Source of the DNA: Pelagibius litoralis
GTDB taxonomy: Bacteria > Pseudomonadota > Alphaproteobacteria > Kiloniellales > Kiloniellaceae
DNA length: 64,000 nt
Reading direction: 5' to 3'
NCBI RefSeq assembly: GCF_011683915.1
Contig: NZ_JAAQPH010000012.1
Location: 124,001 to 188,000, forward strand
The position numbers were made by a program, and so were the translations under genes. Under the pieces are notes generated by a model. That model ran no database searches, had not been told where the DNA came from, and saw nothing but the letters and a program-made list of their open reading frames with translations. Positions 19,936 to 56,818 of this stretch are shown in pieces (position 1 is the stretch's first letter; the number at the start of each line of letters is the position of its first letter).

Positions 19936-20421
19936 ATGACTTGGACAGAAGAACGTGTCGCTGAACTCATGCGGCTCTGGGAAGCTGGACGGAGCGCATC
20001 GGAAATCGGTCGTCTGCTGGGGGTTTCAAAAAATTCGGTGGTCGGTAAGGCTCATCGCATGAAGCTTGCGGCAAGGCCTTCACCGATTAAAAGATCGACG
20101 GGTACGCCGAGCCGGCGTGCCGCGGTGTCGCCGATGCCCAAACCCGTAGCTCGTGTTGAGCCACAGGCAAGACTGGAAAGGCCGCTGCGTCCTGCTGCAG
20201 CACCGACTCCGGTACGGCCGACGGTACGGCGCCAGGCGCCGAGCCTGCGCCGCAGCAGCGGAAAGGGGCCCAACTGCCTCTGGCCGATCGGCGATCCTGG
20301 TGACGCGGATTTCCATTTTTGCGGGGCTCCGGCTGTTGCCGGCAAGCCCTACTGCGACGAACACTGCGCGCGTGCCTATATCGTGCGTAACAGCGGTCGT
20401 TCGGATTCCGAAGCGGCCTGA
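19936..20421 (+). CDS. gcrA: GcrA-family cell-cycle regulator
   Basis: A 161-residue protein. The N-terminal helix-turn-helix TWTEERVAELMRLWEAG / SASEIGRLLGVSKNSVVGKAH (1-42) is diagnostic of GcrA. It is followed by a disordered Pro/Arg-rich linker and a C-terminal domain with CLWPIGDP, FHFCGAP and YCDEHCARAY, the segment that contacts sigma70 in Caulobacter. GcrA binds sigma70-RNA polymerase and activates promoters carrying CcrM-methylated GANTC sites, linking replication to transcription. It is the single best lineage marker in the window. Confidence 0.95.
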   Translation: MTWTEERVAELMRLWEAGRSASEIGRLLGVSKNSVVGKAHRMKLAARPSPIKRSTGTPSRRAAVSPMPKPVARVEPQARLERPLRPAAAPTPVRPTVRRQAPSLRRSSGKGPNCLWPIGDPGDADFHFCGAPAVAGKPYCDEHCARAYIVRNSGRSDSEAA

Positions 20422-20499
20422 TCGGGTCTGGCTGACGGATTGTCTGCGCGGCATGCAGCTGTGCAAGACGTAACCCTGTGCTTTGCGGTGCCGCTGCCT

Positions 20500-20637
20500 A
20501 GAGCAGATCCCGGTCGGATGGAATCGCCGGAGGCGATCCATCGACCGGGTGAATCTGCTCTCACTGTTTGATGGCGATCGGATTCACATGTTTTGGCGTA
20601 GCCACGAAGTGGTTCCGTCAAAACATGATCCGATCTA
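20500..20637. repeat. Double-hairpin intergenic repeat, copy 1
   Basis: About 138 bp made of two consecutive inverted repeats. Hairpin 1 (20500-20561) opens with AGAGCAGAT and closes with ATCTGCTCT, with an inner stem CCCGGTC/GACCGGG. Hairpin 2 (20576-20635) opens with GATCGGAT and closes with ATCCGATC and contains CATGTTTT/AAAACATG and CCAC-GAA-GTGG. The right end (CTA on the plus strand, 20635-20637) is the TAG stop codon of the minus-strand gamma-glutamyltransferase gene. A second copy is at 24648. It sits between convergent genes, where it may act as a bidirectional 3' structure. Confidence 0.85.
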
Positions 20638-22224
20638 GACGATAACGGCAGCGCCACCGCGACGCGGGTCGCCGGCGGCGGTGAAGCTTCCGTCGGGGTG
20701 GCGGGCGACTCCGTGGACGCCGCCGAAGAACAGGTTGTGTGCCGGCCAGTCGATGGTACGGCAACCGCGTTCGGCCATCAGCCTGTCGGCACCCTCGACC
20801 AGACCTTTTTCCAGATTTGCGATGTCCGCTTCCAAATGCAGGCGCGGTGTTTCAATGGCTTTGCCCAGGCTCATGCCGTGATCCAGGATGTTGGTCAGCA
20901 CCTGCAGGATTGCGGTACGGATACGGTTCGAGCCGCCTGAGCCGATGGCAAAGAGCGCGCCTTCGGCGGAGGTTGCCAGGGTCGGCGCCATCATCGAGGA
21001 GAGGCGGCTGTCCCTCGGCCAGCGGTGAAAGCCGCCGCGGTTCAGATCCTCCTCGCCCAGCATGTTGTTCAGCATGATGCCGCTGTCCGCCAGATGCGTC
21101 CCACAACCCTCGCCGTTCGACAAACTCATGGCCGCCAGATTGCCCGCCGCATCGACGACGGAGATATGGGTCGTGCCGCGGGTGAAGCTGCCCTGGCCGG
21201 CGACCTCGGCAGCGTAGCGTTCGAGCAGTGACGGATCGAAGAGGCGCGCCGCGGCGGCGGCTTCCTCGGCCTCGCCGCTTGCCTCTTCCAGACGCGCTTC
21301 CACCCTGGCCTTGTTGGTCAGATCCATCACTCGCGCGATCAGCAGGAGGCGTTCCTCGCTTCGCGCGTCCATGCGATGCAGCGACGCCTCGGCCAGAAGA
21401 CCGAGGGCAAAGCCGATCAGGATCCCCCCGCAGGAGGGCGGCGGGTTGGTCACGACCTCGGCGCTGCGGTAGTGGGTGACGAAGGGCTTTCGCTTGACCG
21501 TCCGATAGTTCGCCAGATCGGCTGCACTCAACAGACCGCCTTCCGCGCGGCAGAGCGCAACCAGTTGCTCTGCCAGATCGCCCTCGTAGAACAGGGCCTC
21601 GCCCTCGCTGGCCAGGGCTTCGAAGGTATCGGCCAGACGTGGCTGTCTGAACGGTTCCCCCGCCGCCAGCAGCGCGCCATCGGGCCCGGTAAACAGGCTG
21701 CGGGGGCCCGCTTTGGCGGTCAGGATCGGGGCGACGACCTGGAACAGGTAGGCGTCGATCGGGCGCACGGTTACACCCTCACGCGCCAGCCTCGTCGCCG
21801 GTTCGATCAGCCGCTTCATCGGCAGGCTTGCCAGCTCCCGGTGAATGGAAAAGATCCCGCGCACGGCGCCGGGCGTGGCGACGGCACCCAGGCCGATATG
21901 GAATTCCTGGGTGGCGGTGCCGAAGTCCGCCAGGATTGGATAGAAGTCCAGGGCCTGGAGCGGCTTGCGCCCTCGCGGGGTCTGGACGAAGAAATCGTAG
22001 AGCAGGGCTTCCCGGCCGCTGCTCTGGGCCAGCAGAAATCCGCCGCCGCCAAGGGAACAGAGCACCGGCTCCGCGACGCAGGATGCGCAAAATGCGGCAA
22101 TAACCGCGTCGAAGGCATTGCCGCCCTCTGCCAGGATTTCTTCCGCTGCTGCCGCTGTCTGGGGGTGGCCGCAGGCCACCGCGCCCAGTGGCCGGGCTTT
22201 GCCCCCCGATCTGCCCGAATTCAT
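20635..22224 (-). CDS. ggt: Gamma-glutamyltransferase/gamma-glutamyl hydrolase family
   Basis: A 529-residue Ntn-hydrolase precursor. The autocleavage/nucleophile threonine is Thr351 in GTTHISVVDAAGN, where the large and small subunits separate. Other family marks are GGNAFDAVIAA near the N-terminus, LGGGGFLL, and NGEGCGTHLADSGIMLNNM. There is no obvious signal peptide, so it may be cytoplasmic, acting on gamma-glutamyl compounds as in amino-acid or polyamine breakdown, or on other amides. Its stop codon is contributed by the end of the double-hairpin repeat, so the final residues may have been altered by that insertion. Confidence 0.93.
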   Translation of the reverse strand: MNSGRSGGKARPLGAVACGHPQTAAAAEEILAEGGNAFDAVIAAFCASCVAEPVLCSLGGGGFLLAQSSGREALLYDFFVQTPRGRKPLQALDFYPILADFGTATQEFHIGLGAVATPGAVRGIFSIHRELASLPMKRLIEPATRLAREGVTVRPIDAYLFQVVAPILTAKAGPRSLFTGPDGALLAAGEPFRQPRLADTFEALASEGEALFYEGDLAEQLVALCRAEGGLLSAADLANYRTVKRKPFVTHYRSAEVVTNPPPSCGGILIGFALGLLAEASLHRMDARSEERLLLIARVMDLTNKARVEARLEEASGEAEEAAAAARLFDPSLLERYAAEVAGQGSFTRGTTHISVVDAAGNLAAMSLSNGEGCGTHLADSGIMLNNMLGEEDLNRGGFHRWPRDSRLSSMMAPTLATSAEGALFAIGSGGSNRIRTAILQVLTNILDHGMSLGKAIETPRLHLEADIANLEKGLVEGADRLMAERGCRTIDWPAHNLFFGGVHGVARHPDGSFTAAGDPRRGGAAVIV

Positions 22225-22385
22225 GCTTCCGTTCGTTTCCCTGTTGCTGCGTGACGGTGCCGCCGCATTCTTGGTGACCCCGGAGCGACAGGGTGATGAT
22301 TTTTGAAGGAGATGGCAACGCCGCCGCGACAGGCAAGGCGTTGTTCCGGGCCCACCCGGTTTGCGATCAGAGCGCCATGATAGCG

Positions 22386-23522
22386 TTAGTTGAGACCGCG
22401 AGCTATATGAGCGTCCAAAGCCGCCAAACCTTCGTCCAGGCCACTACGGCCATAGCCGAGGCGAAAACGGTCAACAGGTGTCTCACCCAGGTCTGAACTG
22501 TAGATCGTACTTGGAAGCAACAGGACGCCACTTTTTTCTACCAGTGACCGTGTGAATTGTTCGACACCTTCATGGCCTTTGTACCTTGGGAAAGCCATGC
22601 ACGAGCCGCCCGGACGCTGCCAGTCGAACAAATCGGGGTACCGCGCAAAGAAGGCCTCCCATTTCGGCAGGTTCTCATCAATGATGGCGCAGTTTCGCGC
22701 CAGCAAGCTGTCCCGGTTGTTCAGCGCAATCTTTGCCAAACGTTCGCTTGGACCTGAATTGCAGATGGATAAATAGTGTTTCATGCGCTCCATCCTGCCG
22801 ATCACGTCAGCGTCCTGACAGGCGATCCAGCCAATTCTCAAGCCCGGCAACCCATAGGACTTGGACATCACGTTCAGTGACAGCCCGCGCTCGTAGATAT
22901 CCGCGATGAACGGCAGATGTTGCGTTCCGGTTCGCCCCAGGCCGTTGAATATCTCGTCGTGCAGTATGTAGATGCCGTGCTTTCGGCACAGCTCGACCAG
23001 CGCACGATAGCGATCAACCGGCAGGATGGCTCCAGTGGGATTGTGAGGGAAATTGATTGTGACGAGTCTGGTGTTTGGTCGTACAGACGAGGCAACCCGG
23101 TCGATATCGAGTGACCAGTTGTCATCGGGATCAAGCGGAATGCCGGTGGCTTCGCAAATCGCCAAAGGCAAGGTCTCGTGAGATTGATAGTTGGGCGTGA
23201 CGACGATCGCATGGCTGTCTTTGTCGAGGATCACCGAGTTCGCCGCGAAGATGCCCTCGCTGGCGCCGGCGAAACACAGGACTTCTTGGGCGTTGCGGTT
23301 CTGAAAACCGAACGCAATCGTCTCACGAAGGTCTGGTGCGCCGAATGTCTCAGTATAGCCGAGCCACAGGTTTTCGAACGCGTCGCGCTCTTCCGGCGTT
23401 GCCATGGCCAACAATTCACGCAGTGAGATGCTCTCGGCATCGGATGCAGTCATGTGATAGCGCGCATGGAACTCCCACCTCGAAAAGTGCGTTTCCAGTT
23501 TGAAGTCCGGCAGCACTGTCAT
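22386..23522 (-). CDS. PLP-dependent aminotransferase, class I/II fold
   Basis: A 378-residue fold-type I enzyme. The Schiff-base lysine is Lys221 in VMSKSYGLPGLRIGW; NFPHNPTGA supplies the carboxylate/phosphate contacts and HDEIFNGLGR the Asp that contacts the pyridinium. It reads divergently from the ornithine-cyclodeaminase-family gene across a 114-bp spacer, and the pair probably works on the same amino acid, one making a keto acid and the other reducing or cyclising. The substrate cannot be determined from the sequence. Confidence 0.9.
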   Translation of the reverse strand: MTVLPDFKLETHFSRWEFHARYHMTASDAESISLRELLAMATPEERDAFENLWLGYTETFGAPDLRETIAFGFQNRNAQEVLCFAGASEGIFAANSVILDKDSHAIVVTPNYQSHETLPLAICEATGIPLDPDDNWSLDIDRVASSVRPNTRLVTINFPHNPTGAILPVDRYRALVELCRKHGIYILHDEIFNGLGRTGTQHLPFIADIYERGLSLNVMSKSYGLPGLRIGWIACQDADVIGRMERMKHYLSICNSGPSERLAKIALNNRDSLLARNCAIIDENLPKWEAFFARYPDLFDWQRPGGSCMAFPRYKGHEGVEQFTRSLVEKSGVLLLPSTIYSSDLGETPVDRFRLGYGRSGLDEGLAALDAHIARGLN

Positions 23523-23636
23523 TCTTGCCTGCTCCTGCTGTGACTGTTTGGTTGCCTCGGATTCTGCTGTTATAGACTGACGGTACCATTAGCCCATCAG
23601 TCGCTACAAATGCTGCCGTGAGGATACTTTACCCGG

Positions 23637-24599
23637 ATGATCAGTCTTTCTCGGCCACAGATTGAAGCGCTGATTGACCATGAGCGCGCAGCGGAACTGA
23701 TTGAAGAGGCTTACCGTGCTGTCAGCCTCGGCAAGGTCAACCTTCCACCGGTCGGGCATATTGTGTTTCCCGAACATGACGGCGATTGCCATATCAAGTA
23801 CGGTCACGTCGAAGGCGACCCGGTGTTCGTGATCAAGGTGGCGACGGGTTTTGAGAACAACGCCGCGCTTGGCCTTCCAACCGGTAATGGATTGTCGCTT
23901 GTGCTGTCTGCAAAAACCGGGGCGGTCAGGGCCGTGTTGCACGACGAAATGTGCATGACGGATATTCGAACCGCTATCGGTGGCGCAATCGCGACACGCT
24001 TGTTGATCCGTGAGGAAAGCAGGCGGATCGTCATAGTGGGAACCGGTGTACAAGCACGCAGGCAGGTCGAGGCTCACCTGAAGCTGATGGCTGGCAGAGA
24101 CCTGGAATTCCTTGTGTGGGGCCGGTCAGCAGAAAAAACCACTGAGGCCGTTGTTGAGCTTTCCGAGGCCTTTCCGTCTGTTCAAGCTGCAGCCGACCTG
24201 GAGCAAGCCTGCCGGCAGGCAGATGTCATTGTGACGACCACGGCTGCAAGGCGCCCAATCGTCCAGCGTGACTGGGTTCAGCCGGGGACGCATATCACGG
24301 CGGTTGGCGCAGACGCGCCGGGTAAGCAGGAGTTGGAAACCGACCTTGTTGCAAGCGCGGATGGGCTCTTTGTCGATCTCAGGCCTCAATGCCTGGATCA
24401 TGGCGAAGTCTCCACAGCAGCGCGCGCTGAACTGATCGGGCCCGATTCACTGGCGGAACTTGGTGAAGTGCTGGCTGGAGAAAAGCCGGGCCGGGCAAAG
24501 GATGAAGACATCACCATTGCCGATCTGACGGGTCTCGCCGTGCAGGATATTGCGATGGCGCGCATCGTTCTTTCGGCTTTTGAGGCGCATGAGAGTTAG
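23637..24599 (+). CDS. Ornithine cyclodeaminase/mu-crystallin-family enzyme
   Basis: A 320-residue NAD(P)-binding protein. The family core is visible: the substrate-binding KVATGFENNAALGLP, the catalytic region HDEMCMTDIRTAIGGAIATR (here split: HDEMCMTDIRTA and IGGAIATR), and the Rossmann loop IVGTGVQARRQVEAH. Family members are ornithine cyclodeaminases, alanine or lysine-type dehydrogenases and ketimine reductases. The neighbour on the other side of the shared promoter region is an aminotransferase, which favours a role in amino-acid catabolism. No signal of which substrate. Confidence 0.88.
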   Translation: MISLSRPQIEALIDHERAAELIEEAYRAVSLGKVNLPPVGHIVFPEHDGDCHIKYGHVEGDPVFVIKVATGFENNAALGLPTGNGLSLVLSAKTGAVRAVLHDEMCMTDIRTAIGGAIATRLLIREESRRIVIVGTGVQARRQVEAHLKLMAGRDLEFLVWGRSAEKTTEAVVELSEAFPSVQAAADLEQACRQADVIVTTTAARRPIVQRDWVQPGTHITAVGADAPGKQELETDLVASADGLFVDLRPQCLDHGEVSTAARAELIGPDSLAELGEVLAGEKPGRAKDEDITIADLTGLAVQDIAMARIVLSAFEAHES

Positions 24600-24647
24600 G
24601 ACATAAAGACATTCAGGCTTTTATGGGTTTTAAAGACTCCGCGTCCT

Positions 24648-24785
24648 AGAGCAGGTCCGGGTTGGATGGAATCGCAGAAAGCGATCCATCAACCCGGTGA
24701 ATCTGCTCTACCTGTTTGATGTCGATCGGATTCACATGTTTTGTCGAAACCACGAAGTGGTTCCGTCAAAACATGATCCGATCTA
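24648..24785. repeat. Double-hairpin intergenic repeat, copy 2
   Basis: Same two-hairpin layout as the copy at 20500. Hairpin 1 spans 24648-24709, with inner stem CCGGGTT/AACCCGG; compared with copy 1 two base pairs have changed on both sides (C-G to G-C and C-G to T-A), so pairing is preserved. Hairpin 2 spans 24724-24783 and is nearly identical between copies. The right end again supplies the TAG stop (24783-24785) of the minus-strand gene, here the SorC-type regulator. Confidence 0.85.
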
Positions 24786-25781
24786 CGTCCTGGCCTGATC
24801 TTGCGGCTTCGCCTCGGCGCCGAGCAGCACCGCCTCTGCGGTGTCTTCGTCGGAGATGAAGACGTCGACCGCCCCGCTGCCCAGGGCGGCGGCCAGGATC
24901 GGTACCTTGTGCGCGCCGCCGGCCGCCAGGATCACCGACTTCATGTCGAAGAGGTCCTTCATGCCGACGCCGATGACCCGGTCGTTGATGGGATGGTCGA
25001 CCAGCTGTCCCCGGGCATCCAGGAACTGGCCGAGAATGTCGCCGACGGCGCCGGCCTCGATCAGTTCTTCGATGGCGATGTCGCCCGGCAGGCCGTCGTT
25101 CACCAGGATCGATGCCGCGCTTGTGTCGCCGGCGGCCATGGTCACCGCATCGACGCGGCGGATCTTGTCCAGCACAGCGCGAAAGACGTCGAGCCCCATC
25201 AGCGTGTCGCGGCTTTCCTTCGACCCGGTGTAGAGCGGTGCCGTGAAATAGCTGTGCTGGGCACTGCAGAGGTCGGCCAGGCGGGTGGTGACCTCAAAGG
25301 TATTGATGTCCGATCCCTTGGTCATGCCGCCCATCATGGAGACGATTTCCAGGTCCGGACGGTGCACCGGTTCCATGAAGCGGGTGGCCAGGTTCAGGGT
25401 GTTGCCCCAGGACATGCCGAAGAGTTTGATCTGCGGGTTCGCCAGCAGCCGCGTCAGGTGGTGGCCCAGCGCCGTTCCGACGATGGTCTGAACGTTGTTC
25501 GGGTCGGCGGGGCTGGGCACGATATAGGCGTCTTCCAGGCCGAAGCGGGTTTTCAGCCGCGCCTCCACCTCGGCGCAGGAACCGAAGCTCGAGTTTATGG
25601 AGATGCGCACGACGCCAAGGCGCCGGGCGTCCGCCAGCGCCTTGTTGACCCGCAGCCGGGTGACGCCCAGGCGTTCGGCGACTGCGCCCTGGGTCAGGCC
25701 TTCGACATGATAGAACCAGGCGACGCGGGCGAGAAACCGCTCATCCTCGTCTATCTGAAGCGTCTTGGGCGCCCGTATCAT
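24783..25781 (-). CDS. SorC/DeoR-type sugar-binding transcriptional regulator
   Basis: A 332-residue repressor/activator. The N-terminal HTH is FYHVEGLTQGAVAERLGVTR followed by VNKALADARRLGVV; the rest is the SorC effector domain (LFGMSWGNTLNLA, VSMMGGMTKGSD, VDAVTMAAGD, NDRVIGVGMKDL), which binds a phosphorylated sugar or polyol. It is the last gene of the minus-strand transport operon, 21 bp after the HAD gene, and probably regulates the divergent promoter region at 29771-29953. EryD-type regulators of erythritol genes belong to the same family. Confidence 0.92.
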   Translation of the reverse strand: MIRAPKTLQIDEDERFLARVAWFYHVEGLTQGAVAERLGVTRLRVNKALADARRLGVVRISINSSFGSCAEVEARLKTRFGLEDAYIVPSPADPNNVQTIVGTALGHHLTRLLANPQIKLFGMSWGNTLNLATRFMEPVHRPDLEIVSMMGGMTKGSDINTFEVTTRLADLCSAQHSYFTAPLYTGSKESRDTLMGLDVFRAVLDKIRRVDAVTMAAGDTSAASILVNDGLPGDIAIEELIEAGAVGDILGQFLDARGQLVDHPINDRVIGVGMKDLFDMKSVILAAGGAHKVPILAAALGSGAVDVFISDEDTAEAVLLGAEAKPQDQART

Positions 25782-56741: not shown

Positions 56742-56818
56742 CGGGGAGTAGCTCAGCCTGGTAGAGCACTACGTTCGGGACGTAGGGGCCGGAGGTTCGA
56801 ATCCTCTCTCCCCGACCA
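56742..56818 (+). tRNA. tRNA-Pro (anticodon CGG), CCA encoded
   Basis: A complete 77-nt cloverleaf: acceptor CGGGGAG/CTCCCCG, D-arm with GAGC closing the stem, anticodon arm CTACG-TTCGGGA-CGTAG with anticodon CGG reading CCG (Pro), and a T-arm with GGTTCGAATCC. Discriminator A (56815) followed by encoded CCA (56816-56818). Nothing about the sequence suggests a pseudogene. Confidence 0.95.

Follow-up and report, generated by a model that had tools for sequence, protein, structure and literature searches.

The window (the whole 64,000-nt stretch of DNA analysed, to which all coordinates refer) belongs to Pelagibius litoralis (assembly GCF_011683915.1, contig NZ_JAAQPH010000012.1) and carries two copies of a 141-bp repeat, hereafter called the element, which is laid out as a CTAG, a first hairpin, a 14-nt linker, a second hairpin inverted relative to the first, and a terminal CTAG. 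The copies are 90% identical across 141 aligned bases, with dissimilar flanks, and each lies between two convergent genes: those of GcrA and gamma-glutamyltranspeptidase for copy 1, and those of an ornithine cyclodeaminase family protein and a Sugar-bind protein for copy 2. A copy is called docked when the TAG of its terminal CTAG is the exact stop codon of the neighbouring gene. The features are the following.

19936..20421, plus strand: GcrA cell-cycle regulator (Pfam PF07750), facing the copy 1-docked gene in convergent orientation
20498..20638, plus strand: element copy 1, full length, CTAG...CTAG
20500..20561, plus strand: copy 1 hairpin 1, with a 3-nt TGA bulge in its 3' arm
20521..20525, no strand: copy 1 GANTC site 1, GAATC, at a single-base bulge
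20551..20555, no strand: copy 1 GANTC site 2, GAATC, at the 3-nt bulge of hairpin 1
20562..20575, plus strand: copy 1 linker, joining the hairpins
20576..20635, plus strand: copy 1 hairpin 2, inverted relative to hairpin 1, with a 3-nt TCA bulge in its 5' arm
20581..20585, no strand: copy 1 GANTC site 3, GATTC, at the 3-nt bulge of hairpin 2
20635..20638, no strand: copy 1 terminal CTAG; its CTA gives, on the minus strand, the TAG stop (20635-20637) of the gamma-glutamyltranspeptidase gene
20635..22224, minus strand: gamma-glutamyltranspeptidase (Pfam PF01019), docked by copy 1
23637..24599, plus strand: ornithine cyclodeaminase/mu-crystallin family protein (Pfam PF02423), neighbour of copy 2
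24646..24786, plus strand: element copy 2, CTAG...CTAC
24648..24709, plus strand: copy 2 hairpin 1
24724..24783, plus strand: copy 2 hairpin 2
24783..24786, no strand: copy 2 terminal CTAC, whose CTA is the TAG stop (24783-24785) of the minus-strand gene 24783-25781
24783..25781, minus strand: putative sugar-binding domain protein (Sugar-bind, Pfam PF04198), probably a regulator, docked by copy 2

A preliminary description of this locus had reported two copies with the same two hairpins in the same order, the right end of each giving the TAG stop of a minus-strand gene in an interval between convergent genes. All of this holds, with slightly wider borders (20498-20638 and 24646-24786 versus 20500-20637 and 24648-24785), and the two-sided changes that it had noted in hairpin 1, from C-G to G-C and from C-G to T-A, were confirmed by the alignment of the copies. 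Both hairpins fold: z ranged from -9.5 to -11.9 across both strands of both copies, and in each of the four copy-strand cases the native fold was better than that of all 200 dinucleotide shuffles. The basal parts of the hairpins are related to each other in inverted orientation, one reading TAGAGCRGAT..TGAATCYGCTCTA and the other the reverse of this, and each hairpin has a 3-nt bulge, so that the whole element matches its own reverse strand as well. Scanned with Rfam at the gathering score, the window gave no family match for the element; a tRNA gene (56742-56815, RF00005) was the only feature found.

The repeat is not restricted to two copies, as had been supposed. A covariance model (R1), built from an alignment of 40 copies from 13 genomes (A2), matched at least 149 rows in the genome, representing at least 102 distinct places once overlapping rows were removed; since 150 of the 2298 candidates were scored, this figure is a lower bound. 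The 149 rows were reduced to 105 kept, then to the 102 distinct places, 98 of which, with their sequence, were used below, the remaining four being left out of the counts. A BLAST search with copy 1 gave at least 46 matches (40 of 127 candidates scored). Near-full-length copies, sized 137-157 bp, numbered 76 of 98 and provide the main counts; the other 22, left out of these, are truncated, internally deleted, interrupted or hybrid. In four cases (C7:26833, C9:91397, C17:37415 and C21:49689) the right hairpin is retained and hairpin 1 survives in part, the DNA to the left being unrelated. There is also a 153-bp subfamily of eight copies (e.g. C61:229276-229428 and C5:153791-153943), in which the tip of hairpin 1 is altered and longer, with a short palindrome of its own, CCCTGGGATATCTGG. 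The copies are mostly intergenic, 1 of 98 lying inside a called frame, and many contigs end next to an element.

How these copies are placed relative to genes was determined with codon-usage open reading frame (ORF) calls made on the flanks for this analysis, which are not an annotation. Among the near-full-length copies, the TAG of the terminal CTAG was the exact stop of the neighbouring gene at 25 of 70 left ends and 25 of 70 right ends; 44 of the 76 copies were docked at one end at least, and 6 at both. For all 98 copies the values were 27/86 and 33/90, with 54 copies docked at least once. Besides exact docking, two other read-ins and one gene start inside the element were seen. A test free of gene models, in which frames open for at least 150 codons into intact ends were counted, gave 51 in the TAG frame versus 18 in the other two together (127 ends), and the same test on 49 loci of relatives from the order, chosen from those fetched, gave 37 versus 22 (89 ends). 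In the 64 copies with both flanks called, 91 gene 3' ends face an element: 45 are docked, 2 overlap it otherwise, 4 are separated from it by less than 20 bp and 40 lie farther away. Half of these copies (32/64) are in convergent intervals, 25 of the 32 being docked, and 3 of 64 are in divergent intervals, none of them docked. The copies are non-randomly placed relative to gene ends, as the docking, open-frame and facing-3'-end counts all indicate.

Docking also exceeds the background of sampled CTAG sites. The 106 CTAG sites in the sampled sequence (the window plus the flanks) fall into 18 coding, 17 at stops and 71 intergenic, and 44 docked copies of 76 compare with 17 stops among 88 non-coding CTAG (Fisher p 4e-7), a comparison made with differing score thresholds and slight overlap, and resting on our own gene calls. 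Of the 47 gene stops in the window, 1 is a CTAG. The flanks also contain 12 convergent intervals that lack an element, and there stops account for 5 of the 7 CTAG sites (small numbers).

The relatives show what these places look like without the element. The interval between ggt (the gamma-glutamyltranspeptidase gene) and gcrA, where copy 1 sits, has no element in five relatives (L155 and L157-L160), a seventh locus (L156) ending short of gcrA; the ggt stop is at the same codon in L155 and two codons later in L157 and L158. In the sixth relative (G003, L161) the interval does contain an element, in the opposite orientation and docked on the gcrA stop. The interval beside gcrA (window 19936-20637 and L161) has thus received independent insertions in two species and in opposite orientations, a double hit which, with about 100 copies per genome, may be due to chance. 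For ten other docked genes, no element was present at the stop in 40 orthologous gene ends of relatives; L206 alone has a copy, about 350 bp beyond the orthologous stop. The stop was at the same codon in 31 of these 40 ends (by locus 4/4, 1/2, 2/4, 5/5, 4/4, 3/5, 4/4, 0/4, 4/4 and 4/4). The clearest empty site corresponds to C6:92334, where the relative (L192) reads CTC TAA CCGGCTTCC, its TTAG also forming the end of the convergent gene, and this genome reads CTC TAG [element] CTAG CCGGCTTCC, with both genes unchanged in length. An element-free convergent pair overlapping in TTAG/CTAA is also present in the window. A different repeat, GATTGACCTCGTGCTTCGAGACG..., was seen shortly past stop codons in L188, L199 and L221 (relatives G001 and G002). 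The same-codon stops of the element-free relatives imply that the element replaces an existing stop in place, mostly without truncation. The earlier view that it supplies the stop codon of its neighbour is therefore right as far as the occupied site is concerned, with the correction that, where comparison is possible, a stop mostly existed at that codon already. The proposal of a small mobile repeat inserting at gene ends is supported by the 102 or more places, the empty orthologous sites and the exact docking.

Whether pairing is preserved, and whether copies fall randomly with respect to gene ends, had been set beforehand as checks on this proposal, and neither went against it. In the A2 alignment, 97.6% of cells are paired and two-sided changes occur at 13 of 38 pairs (65 cells), against 91.8%, 6.2 pairs and 14.5 cells in shuffles, and 31.7-41.9%, 2-5 pairs and 5-8 cells when the partners are slid by one to three columns. 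In A4, a broader sample comprising 27 sequences from the order, 90.6% of cells are paired, with two-sided changes at 29 of 33 pairs (159 cells), against 72.6%, 17.1 pairs and 48.8 cells in shuffles, and 29.0-40.9%, 12-23 pairs and 22-47 cells in slid alignments. Since the structures are the consensus folds of the very alignments tested, they are favoured over the slides. Pairing is preserved with covariation throughout the order, at levels exceeding both shuffles and slides, and the compensatory changes first noted between copies 1 and 2 are part of this genuine order-wide covariation. GANTC sites are conserved as well: the alignment has them at three constant positions, filled in 38, 38 and 36 of the 40 sequences, with a mean of 2.99 per element in the 76 copies versus 0.58 in mononucleotide shuffles. 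In copies 1 and 2 all three are at bulges, one of 1 nt and two of 3 nt.

The element also occurs outside this genome. DNA matches were obtained in 13 of 40 relatives, one of them (G019) across 21 bases only, and among the relatives of the genus the element was not found in G004, was present in few copies in G007 and in many in others. An exact core pattern, searched in a species-level genome collection that possibly does not include the records of the window genome, was found in 13 stretches, all from two metagenome-assembled genomes of Pelagibius sp. At an E value of 1e-8, R1 matched 31 of 61 genomes of the order, our own included. A broader model (R2, 27 sequences), used at 1e-6 on the class with 8 candidates scored per genome, matched 39 of 385 alphaproteobacterial genomes, including our own and some contributors to R2; in 24 class-level loci the length is 105-142 bp. 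A plasmid collection gave no match with copy 1 or with the class-level elements L294, L299, L289, L305 and L303; with another one, L304, seven Rhizobium records were matched. R2, run on one record for each of the three independent loci concerned, delimited elements of 111-117 bp, and in six of the seven records (record H2 was left out) an annotated stop lies inside the element end, the docked genes coding for an ABC protein, CheW and UgpC.

The ends of the element give an indication of its target. Where both TA are preserved (62 copies), the left outer base is C in 55, T in 6 and A in 1, and the right one G in 59, A in 2 and C in 1; by contrast, the inner G is invariant (76 of 76) and the inner C nearly so (75 of 76). 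Variable outer and constant inner bases are what is predicted if the target is YTAR, the TA is duplicated and the outer bases are supplied by the host. The element is a real, well-conserved mobile repeat family, and its insertion into stop codons is clearly demonstrated; the structure, its covariation, the copy number, the docking, the empty sites and the conservation of GANTC are matters of observation. We consider it quite probable that it is a non-autonomous mobile DNA repeat of the two-arm kind, like the CcrM-associated intergenic repeats (CIR), the Rhizobium-specific intergenic mosaic elements (RIME) and Bru-RS, which lands on YTAR, mostly CTAG, and rebuilds stops. Insertion would occur at YTAR, mainly CTAG, the host giving the two outermost bases and the TA presumably being duplicated. 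An insertion into TAG, TAA or a YTAR common to two convergent stops would then remake a TAG at the same codon, since the element itself begins with a G after the TA and its other end mirrors this one. As insertion rebuilds the stop, stop codons would be safe landing sites and gather copies, and selection, through the loss of harmful insertions, would account for their enrichment. The enzyme would be a TA-duplicating DDE transposase acting in trans, for instance one of the IS5/IS427 type.

Candidates for such an enzyme were sought in the genome. Neither DDE_3 (PF13358) nor Y1_Tnp (PF01797) had a match in this 64-contig assembly. DDE_Tnp_1 had seven matches, none with the end motifs of the element as its own ends; two of these loci (L273 and L274) are IS5-like, with CTAG as their target and IS5-like inverted repeats at CTAG close to an element. 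A search with the end motifs gave 148 matches, of which 100 were listed, the other 48 not being examined; for the lone left ends fetched among these 100, no matching right end was found by motif search, transposase genes not being sought there. Insertion sequences (IS) do frequent the element. An IS end lies at its CTA in 19 of the 98 copies, with three IS types at CTAG or CTAA (15, 2 and 2; examples from our own genome are L018, L024, L027, L028, L136, L146 and L262), and the commonest one, whose end is CAGGCTGCTGAAAAAG, is in addition inserted into the linker at its CTAA, which it apparently duplicates. The element has the appearance of a hot spot for IS.

Several points weigh against the proposal of a stop-rebuilding mobile repeat of this kind. 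No transposase with matching ends came out of the Pfam searches or, among the matches listed, the end-motif search of the genome. A TA duplication is indistinguishable from a 4-bp CTAG duplication for an element ending in the same letters, and the C6:92334/L192 empty site is equally compatible with both. The likeness to CIR and RIME is one of description, and not of direct match to the published sequences. At C5:153791 the proteins of all four relatives are three residues longer, their stop being three codons later, and the insertion may have shortened the protein; at five further gene ends the position of the stop codon also differs in relatives. Finally, the frame bias is weak in the 24 class-level loci (taken from the 26 loci L280-L305), with 18 versus 17 for 39 ends (p 0.03): the docking signal weakens with phylogenetic distance.

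The strong covarying pairing, and the contrast between 32 copies in convergent intervals and 3 in divergent ones out of 64, could also be expected of a functional RNA or DNA element acting at gene 3' ends, which would terminate transcription or stabilise the mRNA on both strands, the overlap with stops reflecting that function. We find this rather unlikely: a terminator and promoter scan revealed no terminator-like site with a T-tract, Rfam gave no match at the gathering score, the stops of the 40 orthologous gene ends are devoid of the element, and its presence varies among the relatives of the genus, from none found in G004 to many. As to the pairing, the transposition machinery could equally keep it. 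The inverted hairpins and the four conserved bases of their foot also call to mind a REPIN-type element mobilised by a RAYT (Y1 tyrosine) transposase, all the more since, according to PMC3733652, GTAG REP termini can give flanking ORFs their TAG stops. Yet this genome has about 100 copies and no Y1_Tnp match, G002 and G005 are likewise rich in copies and without Y1_Tnp match, and G004 has Y1_Tnp and no copies were found in it; moreover, both feet read CTAG, instead of a single GTAG, and the unit is 141 bp long, which makes this origin very improbable.

Another competitor is a dedicated stop-seeking element, whose transposase would sense stop codons or terminating ribosomes, and not CTAG alone. 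The excess of docking over the non-coding CTAG background (44/76 versus 17/88, p 4e-7) and the scarcity of CTAG at window stops (1/47) speak for it; however, that background comes from our own gene calls, purging near promoters can account for the rest, and in element-free convergent intervals CTAG is at stops nearly as often (5/7, small numbers) as convergent copies are docked (25/32). The latter similarity, together with the near-empty divergent intervals, means that CTAG targeting combined with the loss of harmful insertions may suffice and is the economical reading of docking, one for which a stop-codon sensor is not needed, and we regard active stop seeking as unlikely.

Among known repeats, CIR (Chen and Shapiro 2003) are, according to PMC2229807, alphaproteobacterial repeats of about 110 bp with two arms, a linker and a conserved GANTC. 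The element resembles them in its linker between two long inverted-repeat arms and its conserved GANTC, and in being abundant, mostly intergenic and alphaproteobacterial; it differs in its length (141 bp versus about 110) and in having its GANTC at bulges, whereas that of CIR is at or in the terminal loop of one arm, and for that reason we place it in the same kind as CIR without filing it as a strict CIR. It also docks on stop codons, a property absent from the CIR account in the accessible text of PMC2229807. Bru-RS1 and Bru-RS2 (Halling and Bricker 1994) are palindromic repeats of about 103-118 bp, reported hot spots for an IS that duplicates YTAR/TA, and IS711 is reported to insert in Bru-RS (PMC2266754 and PMC2267715, the former for IS711); the likeness here, one of description and not of sequence, lies in the palindromic repeat and the IS ends at CTA (19/98 copies). 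In the literature searched, partial texts which did not cover the primary CIR and RIME papers, docking on stops was nowhere mentioned for CIR, RIME or Bru-RS, and no absence from print is claimed. The element shares with RUP, Correia and ERIC type miniature inverted-repeat transposable elements a size of about 100-200 bp, TA termini and a high copy number (PMC2229807), but has two separate arms instead of one stem closed by both ends, and no IS630-type DDE_3 was found in the 64-contig genome. Like the GTAG REP and REPIN associated with RAYT, it is made of hairpins near genes, with termini able to supply TAG stops (PMC3733652); unlike them, it is longer, has CTAG at both ends and lives in a genome without Y1_Tnp match. 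RIME, said to have been described by Osteras in 1995, reportedly include RIME1, of about 108 bp with two palindromes. Like the element they are short intergenic repeats, in their case of rhizobia, and R2 matches the 111-117 bp elements of the Rhizobium plasmids; they differ by their host clade, the likeness being again by description and not by the RIME1 sequence. On such descriptions, RIME and Bru-RS are probably of the same kind as the element.

To conclude, a simple rule emerges for the crowding of some bacterial repeats at the 3' ends of genes: their target is palindromic and CTAG-like, as offered by stop codons, and their ends rebuild the stop. The rule predicts the sites of fresh insertions, and explains how a stop codon can change between relatives without a change in the protein. 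A further suggestion is that the CIR, RIME and Bru-RS type repeats scattered over the alphaproteobacteria have one searchable architecture in common. The conserved sites raise, in addition, the question of CcrM sites in mobile DNA. Dam sites gate IS10. A doubtful extension, which we mention as speculation, is that the element belongs to a class-wide family at home on stop codons, in which the bulge GANTC (CcrM) sites would be kept since methylation behind the replication fork would gate transposition. If that were true, methylation gating would time insertion by the cell cycle, and insertion would be harmless by design.

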